From NCBI GenBank assembly GCA_903970385.1, contig CAJCIN010000177.1:1-54301 (forward strand): a stretch of DNA of 54,301 bases, read 5' to 3'. Origin of the DNA: Rhodospirillales bacterium (lineage in GTDB: Bacteria > Vulcanimicrobiota > Vulcanimicrobiia > Vulcanimicrobiales > Vulcanimicrobiaceae). The notes beneath the pieces are model-generated. The model did not search any database and was not told the origin of the DNA. It was given only the letters and a program-made list of their open reading frames with translations. Positions 14,577 to 16,638 of the stretch are shown piece by piece. The stretch's first letter is position 1. Each line of letters opens with the position of its first letter. A program made the translations under genes and the position numbers.

Positions 14577-15038
14577 TTAGGAAGCGCGCGTGCCGAGCGA
14601 GTCGAGCGCGCGCTGCATGATCGAACAGAGTTCGAGCTTGTCGCGCTCGTCGAGGTTCGCGATCGCGGGCGGGGGCTGGTGGAAGCGCTCGCGGGCGCGC
14701 ACGTAGAGCTCGGTTCCGTCCGTCGTCATGACGAGCGTCTTGACGCGGCGGTCGTGTTCGGAACTCTGCCGCTCGACGAACCCTCGCGTCTGAAGCTTGT
14801 CGACGATCGACGTGACGTTCGAGGCGTCGCACCCGAGGTTGATCGCGAGCTCGCTCATCGTCATCGAACCGAATTCGCCGAGGATCTTCATGGCGATCAA
14901 CTGCTGCGGGGTGAGGCCGAAGGACGCCGCCACCTTGTCCACCCACGGCTTGAACGATTTCCAGACGTCCGCCATGAGGTCCCAAGCACGGGTTCCCGCA
15001 TTCTCCTGGACCTCTGGACCCGCACTATGGTCGATCAT
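14577..15038 (-). CDS. MarR-family transcriptional regulator
   Basis: A 153-residue winged-helix repressor. The DNA-binding core is LTPQQLIAMKILGEFGSMTMSELA followed by the recognition helix DASNVTSIVDKLQTRGFVER and the wing SSEHDRRVKTLVMTTDG, the hallmark MarR arrangement, with dimerisation helices at both ends. ATG 15038 lies seven bases after a -10 box, so the mRNA is probably leaderless or nearly so, and no Shine-Dalgarno is visible. A palindrome fills the promoter spacer, which points to autoregulation. It is convergent with the threonine dehydratase gene and divergent from the micro-ORF/ECF operon, its most likely other target. Confidence 0.93.
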   Translation of the reverse strand: MIDHSAGPEVQENAGTRAWDLMADVWKSFKPWVDKVAASFGLTPQQLIAMKILGEFGSMTMSELAINLGCDASNVTSIVDKLQTRGFVERQSSEHDRRVKTLVMTTDGTELYVRARERFHQPPPAIANLDERDKLELCSIMQRALDSLGTRAS

Positions 15039-15045
15039 CTGAAAT

Positions 15046-15074
15046 ATTGTACCTTAAAAAGTTTAAGCTTGCAA
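15046..15074 (-). promoter_or_regulatory. marR promoter with palindromic operator in its spacer
   Basis: On the minus strand, a -35 TTGCAA (15074-15069) is separated by exactly 17 bases from a -10 TACAAT (15051-15046). The spacer holds the inverted repeat CTTAAA-AAG-TTTAAG (15053-15067). An operator between the hexamers of a repressor's own promoter is the classic autoregulatory arrangement. The predicted transcription start falls at or one base before the marR ATG at 15038. Confidence 0.7.
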
Positions 15075-15107
15075 TCTATTGCACTGAGCGATAGTTGGTG
15101 ATATAAA
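15070..15107 (+). promoter_or_regulatory. Promoter of the micro-ORF/ECF operon with second palindrome over the -35
   Basis: On the plus strand, TTGCAC (15079-15084), a 17-base spacer and TATAAA (15102-15107) form a promoter with an extended -10 TGA upstream of the hexamer. A perfect inverted repeat TGCAAT-CT-ATTGCA (15070-15083) covers the -35 and also contains the divergent promoter's TTGCAA. One protein bound here could therefore control both directions. The surrounding 100 bases are far richer in A and T than the rest of the window. Confidence 0.65.
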
Positions 15108-15159
15108 GTATCTACTTCGCCAAATAAAGTTTCGCCGGCGGATGAGAACGAGGTGAGAG

Positions 15160-15309
15160 ATGCATTCCACAGATGAGACGACTGCGAAACGGTTCGCGAG
15201 ATGGTTGTCCGGGGCGCTTCGGCCGGTCGAGCCGTACGGGGATTACTTCGTTCGGTTGGAATCCAGCATCGCCGCAAGCGCTCCGAAGGCGTGTGCGTCG
15301 TGCACGTGA
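15160..15309 (+). CDS. 49-residue micro-protein with C-terminal CxxC, first gene of ECF operon
   Basis: ATG 15160 is preceded by GAGGTGAGAG, the strongest Shine-Dalgarno in this region. The protein starts MHSTDETTAKRFARWLSG. It continues with ALRPVEPYGDYFVRLESS, which resembles the 'aLrpveP...F..RL' segment found in membrane-linked anti-sigma or sigma-regulator proteins, and it ends KACASCT with a CxxC pair at residues 45 and 48. Its TGA overlaps the next GTG (GTGA). The combination suggests a small cytosolic, possibly zinc- or redox-responsive partner of the ECF factor encoded two genes downstream. That role is inference. Confidence 0.65.
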   Translation: MHSTDETTAKRFARWLSGALRPVEPYGDYFVRLESSIAASAPKACASCT

Positions 15310-15485
15310 ACCCGGCGCTGGCCGGCGTGCTCGCGGCGTTTGCCTTCGGCTATCGTGCCGATGCCGGTCTGACGATCGTCATCGTACCTACGGTATTGCT
15401 GGTCCTCGTACTTCTTGCCGATGCGGTCGTGTCGATCCGCCGGCGCGTCGTGGCCGCTCCGGTCGGGCTTCGTTCCATCCGATGA
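15306..15485 (+). CDS. 59-residue membrane micro-protein, second gene of ECF operon
   Basis: From GTG 15306 to TGA 15483-15485, overlapping its upstream and downstream neighbours by four bases each. It has two short hydrophobic segments: LAGVLAAFAFGYRADAG, and a stronger LTIVIVPTVLLVLVLLADAVV. A basic tail follows (SIRRRVVAAPVGLRSIR), which should face the cytoplasm. No family is recognised. Together with the preceding CxxC micro-protein it could form a two-part anti-sigma module, with soluble and membrane halves encoded separately. Confidence 0.65.
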   Translation: MNPALAGVLAAFAFGYRADAGLTIVIVPTVLLVLVLLADAVVSIRRRVVAAPVGLRSIR

Positions 15486-16048
15486 TCGCCGTCTCAACCT
15501 TGCCGATCGACGATTCCGTGCTCGTCGACGCGGCTCGCGCCGGGTCGACGGACGCGTTCGACGTGCTCGTCGACCGGTATCGCGCGCCGGTCGTCCGGCT
15601 CGCGTACCGGCTCACGCACGACCGCGACGAAGCGAACGACATCGCACAAGACTCGTTCATGCGCGCGTATCGCAGGATCGGCGAGTTCAAGCCCGACCGT
15701 CCCTTCGCGCGCTGGCTCTTCGCGATCGCGCGCAACGCGTCGCTCGACGCACTGCGCCGGCGGCGGCGCGCCGCCTCACTCGAGCCGTCCACGATCTCGA
15801 CGGCAGCCGAGCCCGGCCCCGAAGACCTCGCGCTCCGCAACGACGAAGCCGCGCGCGTGCACGCCGCACTCGATGCGTTGCCCGCGAAGTATCGCGACGT
15901 GCTCGAACTCTACTACGTGTCCGACCTGCGCTATCGCGACATCGCGGTCGCGCTCGAGATCCCGATCGGGACCGTCAAGACGTACATCTCGCGCGCGAAG
16001 CGCAGGTTGCGCGTCGAACTCGACCCGAGCGAGATCCTCGCGGCGTAG
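15482..16048 (+). CDS. RNA polymerase ECF-type sigma factor
   Basis: A 188-residue sigma-70-family factor. ATG 15482 overlaps the previous TGA (ATGA). Region 2 runs from DAFDVLVDRYRAPVVRLAYR through DEANDIAQDSFMRAYRRIGEF to FARWLFAIARNASLDALRRR. Region 4 contains LPAKYRDVLELYYVSDLRYR and the helix-turn-helix IAVALEIPIGTVKTYISRAKRRL. There is no SnoaL or other C-terminal extension. No ZAS-type anti-sigma follows. The next gene is convergent. Its regulators are probably the two micro-proteins upstream and the divergent MarR. Confidence 0.95.
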   Translation: MIAVSTLPIDDSVLVDAARAGSTDAFDVLVDRYRAPVVRLAYRLTHDRDEANDIAQDSFMRAYRRIGEFKPDRPFARWLFAIARNASLDALRRRRRAASLEPSTISTAAEPGPEDLALRNDEAARVHAALDALPAKYRDVLELYYVSDLRYRDIAVALEIPIGTVKTYISRAKRRLRVELDPSEILAA

Positions 16049-16059
16049 CTCCGCCGCCC

Positions 16060-16638
16060 TCAGCGCCCCATCGCATGGAATTCGGCGTTCGGGCGCATGT
16101 CGAGCGCGCCGGCCATGCGATTCGAGAAGCCGAAGAACGCGGCGATCGCCGCGATGTCCCACACGTCGTCATCGGAGAAGCCGGCGGCGCGCAGATCGTC
16201 GATCTCGGCATCGCTCGCCGCGAAGCGCGGTTCGTTGACGCGCGATGCGAACGCGAGCATCGCGCGCATGCGCGGCTCGAGCGTCGCGGTCCGCCAATTG
16301 ATCGCGATCTGATCGGCGAGCACCGCATCGTTCGTGAAGATCCGTAGCGCCGCACCGTGCGCCGTCACGCAGTATTGGCACGCGTTCTCCGACGAGACGG
16401 CGACGACGATCGCCTCGCGCTCCGCGCGCGAGAGGCCGCCCGCACCTTTCATCAGGACGTCGTGATAGGCCACGAACGCGCGAAAGTGTTCGGGCCGGCG
16501 CGCGTACGCTCGAAAGACGTTCGGCACGAAGCCGACGCGTTCGCGGTTCTTCGCGTAGATCGCGGCGATGTCGTCCGGCAAAGCGGCCTCGTCGGCTTCA
16601 CCGAATCGGGAAATGCGTTCGTCGCTCACGTCGCACAC
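16060..16638 (-). CDS. Peroxidase-related carboxymuconolactone decarboxylase (AhpD-like) protein
   Basis: A 192-residue all-helical AhpD-fold protein. The active-site signature ENACQYCVTAHG (CxxC followed by histidine, about residues 85-96) is intact, and the surrounding helices (REAIVVAVSSENACQYC and RMRAMLAFASRVN) match the uncharacterised peroxidase-related subfamily. Members are thiol-dependent hydroperoxide reductases or adaptors. No ahpC gene is adjacent. It ends 12 bases from the converging ECF sigma gene, so a redox link between the two is possible but is only proximity. Confidence 0.88.
   Translation of the reverse strand: MCDVSDERISRFGEADEAALPDDIAAIYAKNRERVGFVPNVFRAYARRPEHFRAFVAYHDVLMKGAGGLSRAEREAIVVAVSSENACQYCVTAHGAALRIFTNDAVLADQIAINWRTATLEPRMRAMLAFASRVNEPRFAASDAEIDDLRAAGFSDDDVWDIAAIAAFFGFSNRMAGALDMRPNAEFHAMGR

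Follow-up and report, generated by a model that had tools for sequence, protein, structure and literature searches.

Organization of the sigma factor locus

The window, the whole stretch of 54,301 nt that was analyzed, comes from an uncultured soil bacterium, and loci of Candidatus Eremiobacterota were compared with it. It contains a gene for an ECF sigma factor with two small open reading frames, ORF1 and ORF2, in front of it. The genes and features of the locus are listed below.

14577-15038, - strand: gene for a MarR-family regulator, divergent from the sigma operon (Pfam MarR, E 1.4e-15)
15079-15107, + strand: housekeeping-type promoter TTGCAC-17-TATAAA, from an alignment of six intergenic regions
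15100-15112, strand not assigned: imperfect palindrome GATATAAAGTATC, read from the sequence, covering the -10 box; candidate MarR operator with putative binding
15150-15156, + strand: strong Shine-Dalgarno (SD) sequence GAGGTGA, directly 5' of the ORF1 ATG
15160-15309, + strand: ORF1, conserved microprotein of 49 aa; two predicted helices, cysteine near its end
15306-15485, + strand: ORF2, a hydrophobic protein of 59 aa with a GTG start, found only in this genome
15482-16048, + strand: ECF sigma factor gene, 188 aa (Pfam Sigma70_r2 and r4_2)
16037-16045, + strand: C-terminal Leu-Ala-Ala of the sigma factor, candidate ClpXP (ssrA-like) degron, from comparison of orthologs
16060-16638, - strand: carboxymuconolactone-decarboxylase/AhpD-like gene (CMD) with CxxCxxxH, convergent with the sigma gene (Pfam CMD, E 7e-15)

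ORF1 is joined to ORF2 by a GTGA overlap and ORF2 to the sigma gene by an ATGA overlap. An SD of its own is not evident at the start of either ORF2 or the sigma gene, so both starts probably depend on translational coupling. A 4-nt overlap alone is weak evidence, since 53% of the NTGA sites in this GC-rich window open a frame of at least 59 codons. The sigma protein has Sigma70_r2 (E 2e-18, residues 29-96) and r4_2 (E 1e-17, residues 125-176 of 188) and no further Pfam domain. No recognizable anti-sigma gene adjoins it, and the zf-HC2 anti-sigma domain had no match anywhere in the 54,301 nt. The original prediction for this locus was exact in its coordinates, its lengths of 49 and 59 residues, its two overlaps, and the CASCT tail of ORF1. 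It was also right about the very strong ribosome site of ORF1 and about the lack of a conventional anti-sigma gene beside the sigma gene. Upstream of the CMD gene lies a gene for a CHRD-domain secreted protein (PF07452; 16710-17231, - strand), and a similar protein adjoins the sigma gene in one of the related genomes (G062, below).

Orthologous loci

There are eight genomes among 149 of the phylum, that of the window included, that encode this sigma factor at 65% identity or more. The window's genome is labeled G000. Its seven orthologs (G058, G063, G074, G062, G027, G029, and G047) are 65-77% identical to the window's sigma factor. The upstream region could be read at seven of the eight loci; at G047 the contig breaks off. 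A contig search gave a single close ortholog, in Candidatus Eremiobacterota isolate palsa_1515, which is G063. A paper search found no literature on ECF sigma factors of this phylum.

By tblastn synteny, a divergent marR gene lies upstream of the sigma gene in six of the eight loci; it is missing at G027, and G047 is cut. The convergent CMD gene follows the sigma gene in G000, G058, G074, G027, and G029. A DoxX gene is found in front of the sigma gene in G027 and G029, and between ORF1 and the sigma gene in G058. In G062, the sigma gene follows directly after the promoter. The sigma factor of that locus (L047 3860-4450) carries two cysteines in an extension at its N terminus, MAANACPVDTCAGG.

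ORF1 was identified at four of the seven readable loci, in four genera (G000, G058, G063, and G074), and is missing beside the sigma gene in G062, G027, and G029. Because of these three loci, ORF1 appears to be dispensable to the core circuit. Where present, it always lies behind the marR-side promoter and overlaps the next gene. The overlap is with DoxX in G058 (by a possible GTGA start) and with the sigma gene itself in G063 (10 nt) and G074 (GTGA), whose operons have no membrane protein. A purine-rich SD is also found 5' of ORF1 in G058, G063, and G074. The sigma tree groups G000, G058, G063, and G062 (support 81/88) and places G074 outside, and it would fit either one gain of ORF1 with losses or two gains.

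Conservation and features of ORF1

Judged by its sequence, ORF1 is a real conserved protein, beyond chance. Leave-one-out profiles recovered each of the four orthologs from a 1.1 Mb six-frame set, with E values from 5e-16 to 6e-6. W15, G27, Y29, F30, L33, and S40-A41-P42 are invariant among the four, giving a core of W, GDYF, and SAP. The original prediction would have fallen with a dN/dS near 1; the aligned core of ORF1 gives about 0.16-0.56 (dN 0.40-0.70, dS near-saturated), values somewhat favored toward low dN because the core was aligned as protein. In five of six ORF1 pairs, the second codon position is the most conserved; in the sixth it is tied. The CxxC tail that had been described for ORF1 is present in the window and is kept in just two of the four orthologs; all four have at least one cysteine near the end.

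AlphaFold predicts helices at residues 5-23 and 29-40 of ORF1 with moderate confidence (mean pLDDT 72, pTM 0.30). The helices are not consistently amphipathic. Scans of ORF1 and ORF2 against Pfam and NCBIfam gave nothing beyond noise. Zinc anti-sigma factors (ZAS, zf-HC2) are marked by an HxxxCxxC motif within a multi-helix domain. ORF1 does not belong with them: it has CxxC only, at its very end and not conserved, and no Pfam match. Homology to NepR was likewise rejected, as the NepR profile (PF18557) had no match at ORF1 in its own genome at E<=1 and profile-profile comparison with hhalign gave a probability of 0.1%. Searching PDB sequences with the profile of ORF1 brought up phage portal fragments at E 0.6 only, and these were discarded. 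ORF1-like matches elsewhere in the phylum (L142-L147 and L150) were fragments in wrong frames or unrelated genes.

ORF2 and the DoxX position

The codon pattern of ORF2 resembles that of a gene (GC1/2/3 of 0.78/0.47/0.73). Its hydrophobic segment was matched by none of 7429 shuffles and by 0.03% of the window's open stretches, and AlphaFold places helices at residues 3-15 and 20-58 from the single sequence. No homolog was found in the orthologous loci examined, which carry DoxX or nothing at this position. Relatives at ECF loci were thus found for ORF1 and not for ORF2. ORF2 is probably a membrane microprotein particular to this lineage rather than an indispensable half of a regulator.

ORF2 could be a shrunken DoxX, as it sits in the DoxX slot and joins the sigma gene through the same ATGA overlap. 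DoxX occupies the slot in G058, G027, and G029, and the DoxX of G058 may also use a GTGA-type start after ORF1. However, protein and DNA alignments did not bear this out: the scores of 28, 31, and 35 are at the level of shuffled ORF2 (about 30 +/- 5), and the DoxX tail FFAWRSGR is missing from ORF2. This origin is considered unlikely.

C-terminal tail of the sigma factor

The orthologous sigma factors end in EILAA, EALAA, FDLAA, RFLAA, ELLAA, TPLAA, MQAAA, and LGLAA. All eight end in AA and seven in LAA, versus three AA ends in 101 other ECF sigma factors; the eight tails are from related orthologs and are not eight independent events. The linkers before the tail vary in length and sequence. 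Among 167 automatically called ORFs of the phylum loci, eight end in AA, five of them these sigma factors and one the sister sigma factor of G062. Four of the 167 end in LAA, and all four are these sigma factors. The sister sigma factor of G062 (55% identical; L052 3903-4505, - strand) ends in AAA and may represent a sister group with the same degron.

The tmRNA tags, read directly from the sequence as ANNNYALAA and close variants, end in ALAA in all 14 of the related genomes read, among them the seven besides the window's that encode this sigma factor. Because these tags end like the sigma factor, its LAA tail looks like an ssrA-type ClpXP degron. The window's genome encodes ClpX. The tmRNA gene of this genome was searched for and not found, probably due to an assembly gap. 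The tmRNA genes of Eremiobacterota (L177-L190, 1501 onward) were missed by ARAGORN and match RF00023.

A comparable tail is known from sigma AntA, an orphan ECF sigma factor that is degraded by ClpXP via a C-terminal Ala-Ala kept in 67 of 71 orthologs (PMC7142297). AntA was presented there as the only ECF sigma factor so far to undergo direct proteolysis (PMC7142297). The LAA tail on another orphan ECF sigma factor, in Candidatus Eremiobacterota, suggests that the AntA strategy recurs. A conserved LAA tail may serve as a sequence sign for finding ECF sigma factors controlled by proteolysis.

Promoter and MarR

The usual ECF operon is autoregulated. This operon, by contrast, appears to have a housekeeping-type promoter adjoining marR. 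Each of the six aligned intergenic regions has boxes like TTG[AC][AC][CT]-17-TA[TC]AAA; the five other loci have TTGAC[CT]-17-TA[TC]AAA versus TTGCAC-17-TATAAA in the window. A consensus scan had missed this promoter, as it demands T at position 6 of the -10 box. The palindrome spans the -10 box in G000 and G058 and is identical in both. From this arrangement, we infer that the divergent MarR controls the promoter of the sigma operon. The putative promoter of marR itself, TTGCAA-17-TACAAT (15036-15074, - strand), leaves 7 nt between its end and the marR ATG, and the marR mRNA may therefore be leaderless. No ECF-type promoter motif common to the loci compared was found before the convergent CMD gene.

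Proposed control of the sigma factor

The best reading, held with middling confidence, is that this is an orphan ECF sigma factor under the control of MarR and ClpXP, with ORF1 as an optional partner, so that the supply of the sigma factor is controlled and not its classic sequestration. The conserved anatomy of the locus suggests that the divergent MarR would repress the housekeeping-type promoter and let go upon a chemical or oxidative signal. Ribosomes would then load at the strong site of ORF1 and could move on through the overlapping starts, so that the sigma factor would be made in proportion to ORF1. Once synthesis stops, ClpXP would clear the sigma factor, given its ssrA-like LAA end. 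MarR-gated synthesis together with LAA-mediated clearance would explain why a conventional anti-sigma gene is missing from all readable loci, including those that lack ORF1. More speculatively, ORF1 may bind the sigma factor as a small class II-like modulator of the CnrY/NepR type, possibly redox-tuned through its terminal cysteine. The near-terminal cysteine of ORF1 and the CxxC of the neighboring CMD/AhpD-like enzyme could hint at thiol stress, which is speculation.

ORF1 might instead act alone as a class II anti-sigma factor. Its helices would clasp sigma2/sigma4 and oxidation of the terminal cysteine would release them, with ORF2 irrelevant. In class II anti-sigma factors, two short helices suffice to hold an ECF sigma factor and there is no mutual sequence similarity (PMC4598750, PMC7406223), and a role of the two-helix ORF1 as an anti-sigma factor is possible for this reason. 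Its size, its predicted helices, and the way it strictly adjoins and overlaps the next gene in all four genera are consistent with such a role. The missing similarity is no disproof, because CnrY and NepR bind alike without shared primary sequence (PMC4598750). However, the sigma factor is kept without ORF1 at three loci, both NepR tests were negative, and the helices are not consistently amphipathic. This alternative seems possible but not probable. In the preferred reading, ORF1 is an accessory candidate for binding the sigma factor. It represents a small, testable family of partner-candidate proteins without Pfam homologs.

ORF1 may also be a translated leader, in which translation and not the product sets the sigma level, for example by cysteine or redox sensing at its Cys codons. 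ORF1 has a strong SD and the following starts have none, the overlaps are conserved, and a Cys codon is found near the end in all four orthologs. Against this, conservation centers on the middle of the protein, with codon-position constraint, and not on the Cys tail alone. Folding of the RNA from 15114 to 15530 gave no better result than shuffled sequences (z -0.32), and there is no Rfam leader match. A leader of this kind seems improbable.

In the original prediction, a soluble ORF1 and a membrane-bound ORF2 together make up a single split anti-sigma factor. Their overlap ahead of the sigma gene in this genome and the hydrophobic, gene-like ORF2 speak for it. It is now very improbable, as no relative of ORF2 turned up at the loci examined, and three other loci have ORF1 but lack ORF2; in two of these (G063 and G074) the operon contains no membrane protein. 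The sigma factor also occurs without ORF1 in G062, G027, and G029.

An extension of the preferred reading, control by MarR and ClpXP, would make this a second independent ECF lineage in which repressor-controlled synthesis is combined with ssrA-like ClpXP turnover. It would also include a new microprotein family, of about 50 residues and with a cysteine close to the end, whose members are translated immediately before the sigma factor, bind it, and gate its activity or proteolysis. This full combination is quite tentative.

Comparison with known systems

The original prediction knew of no described system of this shape, which was too strong a statement. In cnrYXH, the order of naming puts the genes for a membrane anti-sigma factor and a sensor ahead of the sigma gene (PMC4803752). 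NepR, of about 60 residues by its PDB chains, is a soluble anti-sigma factor whose gene shares an operon with ecfG (PMC4814048). As at this locus, the regulator genes of CnrYXH in Cupriavidus metallidurans precede the ECF gene, and CnrY uses two short helices (PMC4803752, PMC4598750). However, CnrY is anchored in the membrane and works with the sensor CnrX, whereas ORF1 has no anchor and a sensor partner was not found. NepR-EcfG-PhyR of Alphaproteobacteria is alike in its small soluble two-helix anti-sigma factor, whose gene shares an operon with that of the ECF sigma factor. It differs in that ORF1 has no NepR profile match or adjoining PhyR and in that the promoter here appears to be housekeeping-type and not sigma-autoregulated.

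Sigma AntA (ECF282) of Streptomyces is likewise an orphan ECF sigma factor without a classic anti-sigma factor and has the conserved C-terminal Ala-Ala and a separate transcriptional regulator, a part for which MarR is the candidate here (PMC7142297, PMC8999054). The locus described here is in another phylum and neighborhood and has a Leu-Ala-Ala tail, a marR gene, and an overlapping upstream microprotein gene, and degradation would be by analogy. The ECF203 (TetR) and ECF265 (PadR) groups also have an ECF sigma factor without an anti-sigma factor beside a gene for a one-component repressor (PMC8999054). Here the regulator gene is marR, and ORF1 is present in addition.
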